The notes: generated from the sequence alone by a model not told the origin. A stretch of 64,000 nt of DNA from Chloroflexus sp. Y-396-1 (GCF_000516515.1 NZ_KI911784.1:1334881-1398880), one strand, 5' to 3'. Shown: positions 261 through 6,793, numbered from the stretch's first letter. Numbers and translations: made by a program.

Positions 261-1685
261 TCACAAATGCTGAGAGAACCGCATATCGTTGAATGCCGTT
301 CCCGTAAGATGCCCCCGTTCATCAACTTGAGCTGATTTCCCGCTGACTTTCCAATCACGCCCGAAGTTCCCTAGCCCGCCAATCATCTGCGGCGACCCGG
401 ATTGATCGAATGTGGCATACACCATCAATCGGGCATGCGCATCGATCCGCTCAAATGGGTGTGGTGACCACGGGGCATAGACATCAACCGGATAGGTCAC
501 ATTCACGTAGCGCTGGATAATCCATGGTTCGCCCTGGGCGATTCGTGATTGCACAAACGCCAGTGTTTTCTGGGCTGCACTCCGCGAACCATTGATACGA
601 AAGACACCACGACCCTGGCTGTAATACAAGCCACTCCCTGCACCGCACTTTAACACCAGCATACGTCGCGCCGCCGTTGATAGATAAGCAATCTGATCGA
701 TAGTACGAACGCGCTGGAGTTGACAGGCAATCTCGGCGGGCAAACCAATCGCCAGCGGTGAGAGATCAACGACATCGGAACGCAACAGCGCAACAGCGCC
801 AAAGAGCGCCCGTATCCGATCATCAAAGAGATGAGCATAAGCCGGCATAAACGGTAGCGCCATACCCCACTTTTGACGATAGACATAGTTAAGCGGGGTT
901 TCAACCCAGAGTTTACCCTCGGTAGCAGCTCGTGCGATCCGCACAATCATTGGTGGTGGAAGCGCTGGGAGCAATTCTTGACCATACAGAAAATCGATGC
1001 GGAGCAGCTTGCCGCCATCGGCAATCGAGAGATACCCATTTCGTTCGATAATTCGCCGTGCTCCTTCACGCCGATTCAGAACAATATAGTGTATCCCTCG
1101 TTGCGTGTAGATGCGGCGCAGGTAATGTTCACCACGCAACCAGACACTACGAACTGCGTTAACGGCAACCGGGTTGTGGCTACTACAACGCATGATAAGC
1201 TGGTACAGTCCTTGCACCGGATGGCCGGGATGGATGGTAGGGGTTGGGGCGATACTGGCGCAAACATCGTGAATGCCGAAGAAGAGACCCAAGCCACCCG
1301 ATTTCCATTGTACTTCAGCAATTTTCTGCTCGGCGCCAATGGTGATGTAGTCAACCCGACAAAAACGCGGTTCAAGACCGGCCGCGAGCGTCATCCGCTG
1401 CGCCTGAATCTCTTCAGGCCGGAGGCCATACTCGCACAAATCGGCAATCCAACGCGGCTCTTCGCCGGCCAGGGCAGCCCGGTAGAGAGCATTCCACGTT
1501 CGATAAAAATGCTGTAGACAACGCAGATCGGCGTCAATAGCAGCGACTTCATCCTGACTGATGATGCACGACGAAGGCGTGATCAAAGACGGATATGTTT
1601 CACCCGTTCCGTAGATTAAACCGTTGGTTGTCAAAGCGGCGAGCAATTCATCCACTACACCATCAGGATGACGGAGAATGTCCAT
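261..1685 (-). CDS. ATP-grasp-like protein, last gene of six-gene operon
   Basis: The 474-residue soluble protein has no signal peptide. Its C-terminal third looks ATP-grasp-like: a strand-loop containing LVLKCGAGSGLYYSQGRGVF (about residues 342-361) is followed by QRYVNVTYPVDVY (about 390-402). This resembles the lysine strand, glycine-rich loop and E/Q-[YF] adenine strand of ATP-grasp ligases. A conserved-looking block follows with GGLGNFGRDWKVSGKS. ATP-grasp enzymes join a carboxylate to an amine or thiol through an acyl phosphate. It lies 9 bp after an asparagine-synthetase-like gene, so two ATP-dependent amide-forming enzymes are adjacent. The fold is inferred from pattern only, and the substrate is unknown. 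Confidence 0.45.
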   Translation of the reverse strand: MDILRHPDGVVDELLAALTTNGLIYGTGETYPSLITPSSCIISQDEVAAIDADLRCLQHFYRTWNALYRAALAGEEPRWIADLCEYGLRPEEIQAQRMTLAAGLEPRFCRVDYITIGAEQKIAEVQWKSGGLGLFFGIHDVCASIAPTPTIHPGHPVQGLYQLIMRCSSHNPVAVNAVRSVWLRGEHYLRRIYTQRGIHYIVLNRREGARRIIERNGYLSIADGGKLLRIDFLYGQELLPALPPPMIVRIARAATEGKLWVETPLNYVYRQKWGMALPFMPAYAHLFDDRIRALFGAVALLRSDVVDLSPLAIGLPAEIACQLQRVRTIDQIAYLSTAARRMLVLKCGAGSGLYYSQGRGVFRINGSRSAAQKTLAFVQSRIAQGEPWIIQRYVNVTYPVDVYAPWSPHPFERIDAHARLMVYATFDQSGSPQMIGGLGNFGRDWKVSGKSAQVDERGHLTGTAFNDMRFSQHL

Positions 1686-1694
1686 AGTCTTTGT

Positions 1695-3356
1695 CTACAA
1701 GCGATAAGCCCGAAGCCATAACTCGAGCGTCAGCAGCAACCAGATAAACTGACCGTGACGTCGCCAGACCAACCCTCTGCCCTGCATCCAGGCACGAACA
1801 GTTTGTTCACGGAAGAGGTTGCGCGTGCGTGCCGATGGCCCGAGCAATACGTCATTTGCCATCGCGGACAGTGGGCCATGAAGCCAATAGTTTACCGGCA
1901 TCAACATTCCACTCTTAGGACGGTACAAAATCGTTGACGGCAGCAGATCGCGGACTGCCTGTTTCAAGAGCCATTTCTCTTGCAATCCATTGAGTTTCAG
2001 CGTTGGTGGCAGCGCAAACGCCGCATCAACCAGCTCTGGATCAAAGAGTGGGGAACGACCTTCCACACCACCGGCTGCCGTTAACCGCTCAACCTTTGGC
2101 AGAATGTGGTGTGCTCCTTTAGTACGGAGATTGGTATACAGCAACCGGTTAAGAAATGATGACATGCGCGGCGATTCCAGATACGGTTGGACGTGACGTT
2201 CCAGTGGTGGTGCTGCGCGTAACGTTGCAAGTACATCTGGATGAAGCAGCCGCTCTAAATCGCGGTAGCACTTTTGATACGAATGCAAATAGGCCCGAGC
2301 GCGAGCTACCGGGTCTGGATCGGTGCGGTGGAATTCAAACATAAGCATCGGCAGATTCTTGGGGCCACCAAACACCGGATCGCCACCTTCACCATTCAAG
2401 ATCACCGATAGGCCATCACGGGCTGCTGCACGCGCCATCAGCAAATTGGGTGTCGTCAACGGATCGCCAACCGGACAATCAAGAAAGGCCACCGTCTCTG
2501 CCAGATGATCGGCAATCTGCTGTCCATTAAAGGTCAGGATGGTATGGTTTGTGCGGCAGTGAGCTGCAACCAGACCGGAATAGGCCAGTTCGTTGGGATA
2601 TTCTTCGCCAAAGTTAATCGCATACGTGCGCACGGTGCGGTTGTGCAACTGTACTGCCAGGGCGGTAACCAGACTGCTATCAATACCACCGGAAAGAAAG
2701 ACTCCCACCTCCTGATCCACCGGCAACCGAATCGCAACCGCCCGTTCAAGCAGAGTACGTAACCGTTGCGCATACGTCTCGGGCGGTTCAGCCTCGCTCC
2801 ATTCACGTTCAGCAGGTTCCCAAAATATCTCTTCGTGGCTTCCGCCATCGGCCTTTAAGCGGAGACAACGCCCCGGCAGCATCTTGTACACACCTTCAAT
2901 CAGCGTCTCTTCCCCCGGCAGATAGGCAAAGGTCAAAAACGCACGAACCGCATTCAGATTAAGACGTGTCTGAGGAAGGTATGCGCGCAATGCTTGCAAA
3001 GAGAGCGAGGCTATCCATCGCCCATCACAATAGGTATAGAATAGGCTGCGCGTCCCTACGTGATCACGAACCAGGATGAGATCGGCGCCGTCAACGATGA
3101 CAAGGGCAAACATGCCATTAGCCAGGGCAAAACCACGTGCGCCGTATTGAGTATAAAGTTGCAACAATACCGTTTCGTCAGAGCAGTCTTCCGGCAATGG
3201 GCAACCGTCACGCCGTAACGTCTCGAGCAGGAAGGCCCGGTTGAACAGCCGTGCCGTACCGGCTACCGGTCGGCGATCAAGTTGTACCGTTCCCGACGGC
3301 TCACCATCAGGAACAACAGCAGAGATGATTAGATGTTGGACCACTTCAGAAATCAT
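1695..3356 (-). CDS. Asparagine synthetase-like enzyme lacking the N-terminal cysteine
   Basis: The 553-residue protein has the two-domain plan of class II glutamine amidotransferase/asparagine synthetases. The N-terminal Ntn-type domain is recognisable (NGMFALVIVD, RDHVGTRSLFYTY), but the protein begins MISEVVQ, so the catalytic Cys2 that hydrolyses glutamine is absent. The synthetase domain looks complete: PP-loop SGGIDSS near residue 222, GEGGDPVFGG near 319, EGRSPLFDPELV, and KWLLKQAVRD...RPKSGM near the C-terminus. In characterised families (beta-lactam synthetase, lasso-peptide cyclase), loss of the glutaminase goes with intramolecular or non-ammonia amide formation after AMP activation. 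The start overlaps the upstream stop by 4 bp (ATGA), indicating translational coupling. The substrate is unknown. Confidence 0.8.
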   Translation of the reverse strand: MISEVVQHLIISAVVPDGEPSGTVQLDRRPVAGTARLFNRAFLLETLRRDGCPLPEDCSDETVLLQLYTQYGARGFALANGMFALVIVDGADLILVRDHVGTRSLFYTYCDGRWIASLSLQALRAYLPQTRLNLNAVRAFLTFAYLPGEETLIEGVYKMLPGRCLRLKADGGSHEEIFWEPAEREWSEAEPPETYAQRLRTLLERAVAIRLPVDQEVGVFLSGGIDSSLVTALAVQLHNRTVRTYAINFGEEYPNELAYSGLVAAHCRTNHTILTFNGQQIADHLAETVAFLDCPVGDPLTTPNLLMARAAARDGLSVILNGEGGDPVFGGPKNLPMLMFEFHRTDPDPVARARAYLHSYQKCYRDLERLLHPDVLATLRAAPPLERHVQPYLESPRMSSFLNRLLYTNLRTKGAHHILPKVERLTAAGGVEGRSPLFDPELVDAAFALPPTLKLNGLQEKWLLKQAVRDLLPSTILYRPKSGMLMPVNYWLHGPLSAMANDVLLGPSARTRNLFREQTVRAWMQGRGLVWRRHGQFIWLLLTLELWLRAYRL

Positions 3357-3949
3357 CCAAAATCTCCGATGTCGAAATCGTCTGTAAGATCACTGCCGTC
3401 TACATCCTGTTCAACCACGACTGGGTCATAATGAATCTCATTGCTAGACTCAATCTCATAGGCATGCTGACTTTCATCGTCATACGAATCACCCACGCTA
3501 GAGCCGCCCGTCATACTAGCGTCATTAGTACGCGCCATTTGTTCCCGCAATTTTTGTCGTAACATCTCCTCTTCTTCTGGCGTTAGATAATCGGGTGGTG
3601 GCACAAGCGATCCCAACAGAAAGCCAGCGCCTAGCGATGCCAGTATCATCCCCACCCGTCCGCCAAACGACGTTTGATTGATGGTTAACACTCGTCCTCC
3701 GTACCACAGCGTGCGCCCATACCCTTGCTCGCGTGCATAGAAAACTCTGCCGTTACTCAGGGTGCGTTTAATAATGCCATCACCGAGCAATTCATCAACA
3801 CCAGAGTATCCCTGACTATCCTGCCACTCCACCACCCAATCTGACTGCCGCCGTCGCCACTCGTAGGTCCCGTCACTGAAGGAACGTCGGACACTCCCAT
3901 CGGCAAGCACTTCATCTTTGTATGTTAAGACGCGAGGCTCTAGTTTCAC
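3353..3949 (-). CDS. Unknown protein with a membrane segment and acidic C-terminal tail
   Basis: I do not recognise this 198-residue protein. Residues 1-85 contain imperfect short beta-type repeats (LADGSVRRSFSDGTYEW, LGDGIIKRTLSNGRVFY) resembling MORN/YD-like strand pairs. One hydrophobic Gly-rich segment follows (about 97-117). The last 65 residues are very acidic with scattered Ser/Thr/Tyr and end DLTDDFDIGDFG. It is the fourth gene of the operon, 13 bp downstream of the previous stop and overlapping the Asn-synthetase-like gene by 4 bp. Possible roles are a membrane-tethered scaffold or a modification substrate for the neighbouring ligases. Both are speculative. Confidence 0.6.
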   Translation of the reverse strand: MKLEPRVLTYKDEVLADGSVRRSFSDGTYEWRRRQSDWVVEWQDSQGYSGVDELLGDGIIKRTLSNGRVFYAREQGYGRTLWYGGRVLTINQTSFGGRVGMILASLGAGFLLGSLVPPPDYLTPEEEEMLRQKLREQMARTNDASMTGGSSVGDSYDDESQHAYEIESSNEIHYDPVVVEQDVDGSDLTDDFDIGDFG

Positions 3950-3962
3950 AGGACCCTCCAGG

Positions 3963-4916
3963 TTATGAAACCCAACTCATGTATCCAGATGTGCGCCATT
4001 GACGTACTTGCGACCACCACGAAGCTCGCTTGGGCCGTACACGGGTAACAGCCCGTAGTGCACGGAGCAGTGACACTGGCGGCAACGCAGCAATCTCAGT
4101 GTATAAACCGGCCCCCATCCAGAGACGCTCGATCGGTAATAGCGTCACTGGTATCTCGCCTAGATCAACCGGTTGATGTAACGCAAAGAGATGGCGCCGC
4201 AGTGCATGGATAGGACGTAATCCCAACGAACGCACCCGCAAACCGTATGGTAGCTCCAATTGTGCGGGGGCCTCTCTAACCCAACGCATACTGGACGGGC
4301 TAGCGTCGTGTAACAGGAGTACTCTGGGTGAAGGGGCGCGCATGAGCATAGCTACTAGCGCATCTGGCAATGGCGTTGCCTCCTTGGCTGCCAGAATTGC
4401 ACAGGGTATTTCCATATGTAAATAGTTTGCCCGCAACATGTGTGCGATTGAGCTATCCTGACAGATGATTGCGTAGGCCAAACCATAATCGTACAGGTCA
4501 GATTCACGTTCACCGAACGTCAGCGAAGACATCGGTGGTACGGCAGAGAGCAGGCCAGCCGGTTCCCCATAGCGTGTCTGATACACTGCCAACGCCTCAT
4601 CGAACGGCGCAACCGATACCGGCGGGTGGATCGTAAACGGCAGATGTCGTACAAGCTGGGGAAACGTCACCCGAACAGCAGCGCTTACCAGCCCATTCCA
4701 CAGTGGTCGTCTACCAGATAGCGCCATCAGGCCTGCGATGCCACCGGTAACCGAGTAAGACCATCGATCAACTAGGCGGGAAAATGGGCGCAGCGTTCGG
4801 CAAACCTCGTAGTAAAGCTGCCGACGTGTGTAACGAACCCCGAAGCTGTCTAACCGCGTCACACTCTGATCAAGTGCGGTAACAAGCGATAGGAGTGAAG
4901 GCGTCCTCCTAATCAT
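3963..4916 (-). CDS. Unknown protein, paralog of the next upstream gene; possible degenerate Toprim-like domain
   Basis: The 317-residue protein has no close family I recognise. It shares an ordered motif set with the product of 4931-6106: RYTxRQL near the start, a LLLHDAS strand, a [ST]LGLRPxHxxRxxL block, and an almost identical C-terminus (GYMSWVS here, GFMTWPS there). The order IICQDSSIAHMLRAN, ...PDALVAMLM, VLLLHDAS, SLGLRP resembles the Toprim layout of TopoVI-A/Spo11-type proteins, but the acidic Glu and the DxD are replaced. It lacks the zinc ribbon and strong transmembrane pair of its paralog. It is the third gene of the operon. The paralogy is seen in the sequence; the Toprim link is inference. 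Confidence 0.6.
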   Translation of the reverse strand: MIRRTPSLLSLVTALDQSVTRLDSFGVRYTRRQLYYEVCRTLRPFSRLVDRWSYSVTGGIAGLMALSGRRPLWNGLVSAAVRVTFPQLVRHLPFTIHPPVSVAPFDEALAVYQTRYGEPAGLLSAVPPMSSLTFGERESDLYDYGLAYAIICQDSSIAHMLRANYLHMEIPCAILAAKEATPLPDALVAMLMRAPSPRVLLLHDASPSSMRWVREAPAQLELPYGLRVRSLGLRPIHALRRHLFALHQPVDLGEIPVTLLPIERLWMGAGLYTEIAALPPVSLLRALRAVTRVRPKRASWWSQVRQWRTSGYMSWVS

Positions 4917-4930
4917 TGCATCCGCTTCCT

Positions 4931-6106
4931 TTACGAAGGCCAGGTCATAAACCCAACTGACCGAGCCTTAGTCTGGGCCTGAGTTTCTGGATCAACCATT
5001 TGCTTCGGTACAGTTTGTTCTACCGCAACCGTTGCCCGCTTTAGTGCTGCTCGTTCTACCGCTTTCGTTACCACCTTTATCAGGCGGGCAGGTGGAATAA
5101 ACAGCACAGAGGTCTCATACCCCTTGCGTAACCATTTTTGCTCGGCCTTCGTCAGCTTTAAGCCGTTTGGTACGCTGGCCTGCCATTCAAATAATTGCAA
5201 CCATGCTCGCGACGGCTGGAGCTTGCGCCAGGGTAAGCGCAATCGTTGTACATGCCGTGGATGCAACCCCAGGTCAATAATCCGGTGTTGCGGGGTCAGT
5301 TCCCACTCCTTCCTCAGGATCGTCACCATCAAACTCCCAAACAGACTGGCATCGTGAATGAGGAAAATTGGCAGACGTGGCCGATTACGTAACAGGTTAA
5401 TCACATCTCTGTCGAAATCAGTAAGCTGACGCGGGTTGAGTAACGCCAACCCAAGCTGCTCTACTAAGCCATTAGCTCGTAAACAGTCGAGAACATCCTC
5501 GGAGAAGGAGGCTACCACCGCTCGCACACGAGACAGCGGCATATGAAACTGGCGCAAAGCAACAATTTCTTCCTCAGCGACCCGACCGGGGAGCAAGCCG
5601 TGGATGTGTTCCCAGGGTTCGATGTAGTGAACCTCGAATTGTGCAAGCACTTGTTCAAATCGTTTGATATCTAAAGGATTTTTCCGAAAAAACAGAGAAT
5701 ATATCGGAATAAGTATAACAAGTACAACAAAAAGAAACATCAGGAAAATTCGGAGCAAGTAAATAAGAAATGCCACTGAATTTGATATAACAAGACTCGC
5801 ACATAAGATTACGAATATTATTACGGAGAAAGGAACTAGCAAATTCATCAATCTCCAAGATAAAAAAGATGTAAATTGCAACCTTCTTTTCGACGCTTGC
5901 AAAATTACTGCATGTGCCAATTGCCGTGCAGTATACCTATATGTACCCTTTCCGCTCAACCGTTCGGCAATACCGCGTAAGCGCAGGTCGCTTAAACCTA
6001 GGACGTTCTCCCTTGGCTCTAGGGCAAACGCTTTCTTACAACAAGAACATATTCGACCGGTTCGCTCACGGTAGCGCAGTTCAGCGAGGCAGTGTGGGCA
6101 TTTCAT
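4931..6106 (-). CDS. Zinc-ribbon membrane protein, paralog of the following gene
   Basis: The 391-residue protein opens with a zinc ribbon (CPHC at residues 3-6, CSCC at about 20-23), followed by RYTARQL, then two strong hydrophobic segments (about residues 85-140, AT-rich at DNA level). A cytoplasmic-looking C-terminal domain contains IFLIHDAS, DLGLHPRHVQRL and a terminal GFMTWPS. The C-terminal half matches the motif order of the product of 3963-4916, so the two are divergent paralogs. The upstream cupin stop abuts this start at 6106/6107. A regulatory or nucleic-acid role is possible given the zinc ribbon and possible Toprim-like core, but no activity can be assigned. Confidence 0.65.
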   Translation of the reverse strand: MKCPHCLAELRYRERTGRICSCCKKAFALEPRENVLGLSDLRLRGIAERLSGKGTYRYTARQLAHAVILQASKRRLQFTSFLSWRLMNLLVPFSVIIFVILCASLVISNSVAFLIYLLRIFLMFLFVVLVILIPIYSLFFRKNPLDIKRFEQVLAQFEVHYIEPWEHIHGLLPGRVAEEEIVALRQFHMPLSRVRAVVASFSEDVLDCLRANGLVEQLGLALLNPRQLTDFDRDVINLLRNRPRLPIFLIHDASLFGSLMVTILRKEWELTPQHRIIDLGLHPRHVQRLRLPWRKLQPSRAWLQLFEWQASVPNGLKLTKAEQKWLRKGYETSVLFIPPARLIKVVTKAVERAALKRATVAVEQTVPKQMVDPETQAQTKARSVGFMTWPS

Positions 6107-6793
6107 CTACGCACCTCCCTCTAACACACTGGCCAGTCGCCGGAGCCACCCTGCCAGTCGTTCGCGTAGCGATGTCGTTGCATGTACCCGATCCGTTGCC
6201 ATTTCCGTTTCCAATTGCCGCAACGCCTCAAACAACCGCGCTGCTACCTGATCACCCCGACGGGCACGCTCCGCTGCCATCGCTGCGGTAATCGCATAAT
6301 CCTCGTGATCGATACCCATACCGGTGTTGGCAATCACTAATGGCAACGGTGTATCAGCACGATTGTTGAACGAGTGTGGCATCATCGCCGGAATGTGCAG
6401 CATCGAACCGGGGATCAGGCGCACGTGAGCGACGGTTGACCGTTCTTGATCGTACAACCCACACGACGCATACCCCATGCTTAGCACAAAGTGCTCGGCG
6501 CCATGGGCGTGCGGCGTGAAGGCGCTGTGTGAACGGACAAAGCCAAGCTTACAGGTGGCGTTCGTTGGGTTTTCGTCTGAAGTCGTAGCAGAGCCGATGA
6601 GATAGCGCGTATACTGCCCTGCGTCAATAAAGCGAAGCATGTCAACACAATCTTCGCTACGTCGAGTTGGATCGAGACGACGGAGGCAATCTCGCCCTAC
6701 AGCATAAACGACTCCGTCCGGAGCAAAGTAGTACACCGTTGCACCAGAAGGAAGCGTGCGTTTGAGGTGTTCGAGGTATGGAGCGATAGACAT
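6107..6793 (-). CDS. Cupin-domain protein, first gene of operon
   Basis: The 228-residue protein carries a central cupin barrel: motif 1 is FTPHAHGAEHFVLSMG (His, His, Glu ligands) and motif 2 is GSMLHIPAMMPHSFNN, whose His is the fourth ligand. Cupins bind a divalent metal and act as oxygenases, isomerases or small-molecule sensors. The C-terminal 60 residues form a charged helix rather than a DNA-binding domain. It is the promoter-proximal gene of the 261-6793 operon, with a 14-bp palindrome about 70-80 bp upstream of its start. It could be a metalloenzyme of the pathway or its ligand sensor. Confidence 0.75.
   Translation of the reverse strand: MSIAPYLEHLKRTLPSGATVYYFAPDGVVYAVGRDCLRRLDPTRRSEDCVDMLRFIDAGQYTRYLIGSATTSDENPTNATCKLGFVRSHSAFTPHAHGAEHFVLSMGYASCGLYDQERSTVAHVRLIPGSMLHIPAMMPHSFNNRADTPLPLVIANTGMGIDHEDYAITAAMAAERARRGDQVAARLFEALRQLETEMATDRVHATTSLRERLAGWLRRLASVLEGGA

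Follow-up and report, generated by a model that had tools for sequence, protein, structure and literature searches.

A conserved operon in Chloroflexus encodes a glutaminase-less asparagine-synthetase relative, predicted pseudo-Toprim proteins and a membrane protein with a conserved C-terminus

What is the product of six tightly packed genes that lie near the start of a 64-kb stretch of DNA (the window) from the 4.89-Mb single-contig genome of Chloroflexus sp. Y-396-1 (G000:C1:1334881-1398880)? The genes, called A to F here in the order of transcription, are all on the minus strand and are spaced by 0, 14, 13, -4 and 9 bp, the negative value being an ATGA overlap of D and E. The original prediction, which was made from sequence alone, had placed six minus-strand open reading frames here with gaps ranging from a 4-bp overlap to 14 bp, and their coordinates bear this out. 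It described a cupin, two paralogous proteins of unknown function, an acidic-tailed membrane protein, an asparagine-synthetase-like enzyme lacking its glutaminase cysteine and an ATP-grasp-like protein, and it postulated an undescribed pathway. The analysis presented here identifies A to E as a module that is conserved across phyla, and it tentatively points to a role for E in modifying the C-terminus of D at the membrane.

The five-gene module and its distribution

Relatives of C are present in 23 of the 150 genomes of the class, and D occurs in the same 23 (co-occurrence 23/23); A was found in 16 of these 150 genomes and F in nine, one fragment included. Reading of the neighbouring DNA revealed matching A-B-C-D-E order around the class wherever contigs and gene content permit. 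When the D alignment was searched against 84,980 species genomes, it returned 22 loci from Roseiflexus, Chloroflexus, Candidatus Viridilinea and other Chloroflexota, as well as from Dactylosporangium, Virgisporangium, Streptomyces smaragdinus and an uncultured Verrucomicrobium. The order A-B(-B')-C-D-E is common to Chloroflexota, Streptomyces and Micromonosporaceae, with the actinobacterial operons often carrying two copies of B, and the Verrucomicrobium has B-B'-C-D-E with the match to A absent from its contig. This conservation of gene order across phyla is far beyond chance, and that A to E constitute a real module is virtually certain. The expected co-occurrence in Chloroflexota is thus seen and extends well past that phylum, and the idea that the genes might not be kept together in relatives failed. 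As a six-gene unit, the operon stands for A to E and falls for F, which was seen only in Roseiflexus operons, in those of two Chloroflexus and in one decayed copy.

The module is also patchily distributed and occurs on plasmids. D is carried by 12 of the 245 genomes in the taxonomic order of S. smaragdinus and by 6 of the 200 in the family of Dactylosporangium. One plasmid copy, on a Streptomyces megaplasmid, comprises the whole set, and a second, a reduced form on a linear plasmid of the cyanobacterium Gloeothece, comprises a B/C-like protein and two E-like enzymes with D not recognisable; no module members were found in viral contigs. The phylogeny of E places the copy in the window with those of Roseiflexus (support 100/100), apart from a supported clade of four other Chloroflexus copies. 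Since the window copy nests among the Roseiflexus sequences, horizontal exchange of the operon with that lineage is most likely.

Some loci depart from the common layout. Second clusters in Virgisporangium (L130:8192-10019 and L131:7925-9734) combine two B/C-like genes with a D homologue that has DDFG at its end, and no match to E or A was seen in the fetched region. On the linear plasmid NC_014534 of Gloeothece verrucosa (L100:2811-17442), the B/C-like protein, which itself ends in QSFG, adjoins two E-like enzymes that lack the cysteine; a diaminopimelate/ornithine-decarboxylase-like gene is also present, and genes for a protelomerase and for a TIGR04222 protein whose tail reads GGCGCGC lie nearby.

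Pfam, NCBIfam, PHROGs and PADLOC offer no name above cut-off for any of the protein families of A to D. A scan of A, B, C, D and F against PHROGs gave nothing above chance, and on this ground, together with the lack of members in viral contigs, a phage origin was rejected. Nothing relevant on the A-E combination was found in the literature, preprint servers and subscription papers being mostly outside the coverage of that search. The system resembles no described one, although the superfamily of E and the fold of B and C are already known. An undescribed, conserved pathway built around an asparagine-synthetase-like enzyme without its cysteine is supported.

Gene E and the C-terminus of D

E belongs to the Pfam family Asn_synthase (E-value 3e-77), and its closest solved relatives are the hydroxyamidotransferase 7ylz, the beta-lactam synthetase 1jgt, asparagine synthetases and CarA. 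The N-terminal catalytic cysteine and the glutamine-binding NGE motif that define a glutamine-dependent asparagine synthetase are absent from every E homologue aligned, as the original prediction had noticed for the cysteine, whereas MCG and NGE/CGE are intact in each of the 11 canonical paralogues compared, which come from the same genomes. The residues for ATP-dependent carboxylate adenylation that mark the superfamily are retained: SGGxDSS, the EK pair and the lysine of RPKSG are each found in 44 of 44 homologues, and GEGGD in 43 of 44. Because the glutaminase site has been lost, the sequence of E suggests that the enzyme uses an amine other than glutamine-derived ammonia. The f6 Chloroflexota carry, as does Gloeothece, another E-like gene that is divergent.

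One might suppose that E is simply the asparagine synthetase of the cell, given that no other Asn_synthase protein was found in the genome of the window. This is very improbable, however, and housekeeping asparagine synthesis was rejected because of the loss of the cysteine and the glutamine-binding motif in all members and because of linkage: relatives carry E next to canonical asparagine synthetases, E always travels with B to D, and C and D are absent from most of the class. E also does not belong to the XrtA/PEP-CTERM amidotransferases of TIGR03108, which it matches at an E-value of 5e-70 yet with 236.9 bits against a cut-off of 816.9, and with the lasso cyclase model it scores 114.8 bits against a cut-off of 525.

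The stop codon of D overlaps the start of E in 12 of 46 operons, where the two genes are translationally coupled (ATGA). In line with the predicted acidic-tailed membrane protein, the tail of D is acidic and residues ~98-117 make up its single hydrophobic segment. In its AlphaFold model, residues 6-91 fold into a sheet of nine strands, which is accompanied by helices and a disordered tail, and the best matches of its profile in the PDB are the TCP/G-box domains of CPAP (E-values 0.011-0.021). The linker that follows the hydrophobic segment is hypervariable and mostly 38-106 residues long, but its end is not: [DS][FS]G forms the C-terminus in all 45 genuine D termini, and FG is present in 44 of them. 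The overlap with E is not the cause of the terminal glycine, as 33 of the 34 D genes without overlap still end in [DS][FS]G, the lone exception being a frame-broken contig fragment that was not counted as a genuine terminus. All four glycine codons are in use at the last position. Since the end of D is kept without the overlap and whichever glycine codon is used, the sequences point to the terminus itself.

It is possible, if doubtful, that the operon is instead a small-molecule pathway, in which E joins two metabolites or uses free ammonia to form an amide, B, C and D serve only as a membrane scaffold, the DFG of D docks E or B/C, and the cupin tailors the product. The solved relatives of E named above are small-molecule enzymes, and the tail motifs of B and C described below lie near the C-terminus rather than at it, as docking motifs do. 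In addition, an aldehyde dehydrogenase gene lies 3' of E in several actinobacterial operons (L094:10313-11653, L128:5864-7216 and L129:6260-7591), its product being aminobutyraldehyde-dehydrogenase-like but well under the equivalog cut-off, and the Gloeothece locus has a gene for a pyridoxal-phosphate-dependent decarboxylase; these neighbours hint at amine metabolism but are not universal. The module, however, is without a transporter, carrier or universal second enzyme, and the strict stop just after FG in D exceeds what a docking motif needs.

Another explanation is that E forms isopeptide bonds between aspartates of the acidic tail of D and amines of neighbouring proteins, which would produce a covalent membrane sheet. 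Lasso cyclases of the Asn_synthase superfamily activate Asp/Glu side chains, and the last 40 residues of D, which are 29% acidic and 67% Asp/Glu/Gly/Ser, would offer such groups. This seems distinctly unlikely, as the linker is conserved in neither length nor sequence, only at its end, and one D homologue (L057; 152 amino acids in all) has a very short tail.

The predicted pseudo-Toprim proteins B and C

B and C are paralogous, as had been predicted; a search with C matches B at an E-value of 2e-7 with 27% identity. B has in addition an N-terminal zinc ribbon, for which Pfam matches are weak but occur in many members of the family. The best PDB matches to a profile of 41 B/C members are the Topo VI-A chains 2zbk and 1d3y, which are weak (E-values 0.11 and 0.31) but aligned on the Toprim motifs, and Pfam TOP6A-Spo11_Toprim matches two members (best E-value 3.6e-4). 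In the AlphaFold model of C (pLDDT 90), residues 126-292 match the folds of Topo VI-A, JetD, the Corynebacterium glutamicum nuclease 8b7f, which we take to be MksG, and Spo11 with Z scores of 7.1-10.5, including 10.5 to 1d3y and 10.3 to 9o0g, as compared with mostly 4-5 for unrelated folds. Judging by these models, B and C have a Toprim fold of the Topo VI-A/Spo11/JetD type. A stretch of C, RQLYY, is a candidate counterpart of the Spo11/Topo VI-A tyrosine motif, to which it bears a resemblance.

The catalytic glutamate and DxD metal ligands that define an active Topo VI-A/Spo11 are largely gone. The glutamate is kept in only ~2 of ~100 B/C proteins, being mostly Gln in C and Pro in B, and the second aspartate of DxD is Ser in 73 and Asp in 14, so that the motif is mostly DAS; the histidine before DAS and the asparagine of LRAN are nearly invariant. 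By their residues, B and C are not nucleases. One B/C homologue from the f6 Chloroflexota (L066:1857-3221) keeps a D-T-D Toprim motif, with Asp at the position of the glutamate, and is perhaps nearer to an active ancestor.

A second feature shared by the two proteins is G[FYH]M[ST]WP or a close form of it, which is present in 95 of 105 C-termini of the family, at most ~27 residues from the end. The motif is not a genome-wide sorting signal, as GFMTWP has only 1-3 exact DNA matches in each of 12 genomes or records, and counts for a reversed-pattern control were similar in some genomes. The matches compared by coordinate with annotated loci fall inside the operon, and one match outside is on contig C9 of Virgisporangium aurantiacum (G155). 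In CPAP, aromatic residues of the TCP/G-box domains, which are single-layer sheets, bind a proline motif (PMC3776556), and because of this precedent we would guess that the sheet of D binds the WP tails of B and C.

The kinship of B and C with JetD and MksG, which are nucleases of plasmid defence, raises the question of whether the operon is a mobile anti-phage or anti-plasmid module with Topo VI-A-like sensors (B and C) and an enzyme (E) that makes a modified effector or tail. Patchy distribution, horizontal exchange and plasmid copies would fit such a role, but we consider it unlikely. None of the six genes corresponds to a known anti-phage defence system in PADLOC, where nothing beyond a chance-level match to QueC (E-value 0.021) was obtained; moreover, the nuclease residues of B and C are lost, viral contigs yielded no members and no consistent defence neighbourhood was seen.

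Table 1. Coordinates of the operon's genes and of the features within them, as positions in the window
Feature	Position	Strand	Evidence
Gene A, metal-binding cupin by its motifs; first gene of the operon	6107..6793	-	cupin motifs; sub-threshold Pfam cupins
Gene B, N-terminal zinc ribbon, hydrophobic (membrane) region, predicted pseudo-Toprim and C-terminal GFMTWP	4931..6106	-	
Zinc-ribbon cysteines of B (C3, C6, C20, C23)	6038..6100	-	sequence; weak Pfam zinc-ribbon matches
GFMTWP near the C-terminus of B	4937..4954	-	motif survey of B/C-family C-termini
Gene C, paralogue of B without the zinc ribbon; helical N-terminus, predicted Topo VI-A-like pseudo-Toprim and C-terminal GYMSWV	3963..4916	-	
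HDAS of C, the former Toprim DxD with the second Asp replaced by Ser	4299..4310	-	
GYMSWV, the form of G[FYH]M[ST]WP in C	3969..3986	-	
Gene D, one sheet of nine strands, a hydrophobic helix, an acidic linker and DFG at the C-terminus	3353..3949	-	
DG-rich antiparallel beta-sheet of D (residues 6-91), TCP/G-box-like	3677..3934	-	AlphaFold strands; PDB profile matches
Hydrophobic segment of D (residues 98-117)	3599..3658	-	Kyte-Doolittle maximum 1.86
Invariant C-terminal DFG of D	3356..3364	-	comparison of D C-termini
Gene E, asparagine-synthetase-like; glutaminase site lost, synthetase site intact	1695..3356	-	
SGGIDSS, ATP/pyrophosphate loop of E	2673..2693	-	SGGxDSS kept in all 44 homologues
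Gene F, accessory restricted to certain lineages; possibly an ATP-grasp of the circularly permuted kind	261..1685	-	Roseiflexus-type operons only

A proposed tail modification at the membrane

How might these parts work together? One possibility is that A to E are a complete system for protein modification, sited on the inner membrane face, with D as its substrate or carrier. The single-layer sheet of D would be a binding platform, the hydrophobic helix would hold the protein at the membrane, and the disordered acidic linker would present [DS]FG-COOH. E may bind this tail and adenylate a carboxylate with ATP, most likely the C-terminal one and otherwise that of the neighbouring aspartate, and then couple the activated carboxylate to some amine that is not ammonia from glutamine. 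B and C, as catalytically dead Toprims of the Topo VI-A/Spo11 type, could have been reused as a membrane scaffold, their WP tails perhaps docking on the sheet of D as proline motifs do on the TCP domain of CPAP, and A may sense or tailor the product. We lean towards modification of a protein tail over a classic natural product. In its favour are also the QSFG end of the B/C-like protein in Gloeothece, where D was not found, and the amine-related neighbours that some lineages have. The module, the folds, the lost and retained active sites and the conserved tail are computational results, and from them the tail of D as substrate of E, the amine and the roles of A, B, C and F are inferred. That the terminal carboxylate of D is adenylated by E and coupled to an amine on a B/C scaffold is plausible but short of probable, and it is a more speculative possibility that the system represents a new class of ATP-dependent protein C-terminal conjugation, in which an asparagine-synthetase-like ligase charges the DFG of a membrane-tethered carrier on a pseudo-Toprim platform.

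Several points weigh against the action of E on the tail of D. The putative pairing is drawn from sequence, and the free C-terminus of D may equally be a docking peptide. The glutamate of ExRxP in E, which is equivalent to the catalytic glutamate of AsnB, gives way to Gln, Leu, Arg or Trp in 11 of the 44 homologues. No universal amine-donor gene was found across the operons, and the module has neither a protease to release a product nor a hydrolase to reverse the link. The match of the D sheet to CPAP is weak (E-value 0.011).

Known systems offer partial precedents for the proposed modification. PesC, TsrC and ScdTA are asparagine-synthetase-like enzymes whose targets are the C-terminal carboxylates of ribosomal peptides (PMC13060819). 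Like McjC-type lasso cyclases, these enzymes share with E the Asn_synthase superfamily, and they carry out ATP-dependent carboxylate adenylation on a ribosomal product. PesC uses glutamine, however, whereas the glutaminase site of E is lost. Unlike the substrates of the peptide systems, the putative substrate D is a membrane protein of ~200 amino acids without a leader, and the operon is without a recognised curated RRE, protease, MNIO or transporter family. Consistent with what had been predicted, no curated family of lasso or graspetide clusters was recognised in the operon; the lasso B1 and B2 families were not found when all six genes were compared with Pfam, NCBIfam and PADLOC, a search in which small precursor frames were not covered exhaustively.

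Another partial likeness is found in LysW/ArgW and LysX/ArgX, which combine a carrier that has an acidic-aromatic-Gly C-terminus (EDWGE as compared with the DDFG of D) with an ATP-dependent ligase. LysW is a small zinc-binding protein, charged by LysX on a terminal glutamate. This carrier protein has a conserved EDWGE at its C-terminus (PMC10433800). D differs from LysW in its unrelated sequence, its membrane helix, its terminal glycine and its asparagine-synthetase-like partner. The proposed conjugation would be functionally similar to the LysW or Pup systems with unrelated parts. D resembles the TCP10/G-box of CPAP in its predicted DG-rich single-layer antiparallel sheet, a weak match at the sequence level, but is bacterial, shorter and fused to a membrane helix and an acidic tail. 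B and C share the Toprim fold and aligned motif positions with Topo VI-A, Spo11, JetD and MksG but differ from them in the lost catalytic residues, and B adds the zinc ribbon and a membrane region.

Of the remaining genes, A is a cupin by its motifs, in agreement with the original prediction, with the metal-ligand motifs HAH...H and PH...N kept in 34 of 35 homologues, though its Pfam matches are sub-threshold. F would be a later, optional addition, and its distribution rules it out as a core partner. In one genome (G048; L055/L170), decayed remains of F lie 3' of a B-B-C-D-E operon, showing that F can be lost while the core stays. Distant homologues of F exist in other Chloroflexota, and those that were read sit in other gene surroundings; one (L176:649-2801) lies directly 5' of a reading frame that by eye resembles lysine 2,3-aminomutase, a neighbour that may hint at the substrate of F. 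F had been called ATP-grasp-like, an assignment that is not established. F has no match of note in Pfam, NCBIfam or the PDB, and hhalign comparison of its distant homologues with GSP_synth and CP ATP-grasp relatives over their shared core gave P 1e-4, a weak signal for which the control pair GSP_synth-CP_ATPgrasp_2 also failed. F is thus a possible circularly permuted ATP-grasp protein on sequence grounds, and of the two amide-forming ligase-like enzymes once proposed, E keeps the residues of its superfamily and F is at most a candidate.

The unknown partners of E can now be described as predicted pseudo-Toprims (B and C) and as a TCP/G-box-like sheet protein with a strictly conserved C-terminus (D). 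Because the five genes have been kept together across phyla, the unit must do one job, even though the families of A to D are nameless. The Toprim fold of Topo VI-A and Spo11 appears to have been reused here, without its catalytic residues, in membrane-associated proteins, and the module as a whole may represent a new kind of protein tail modification.

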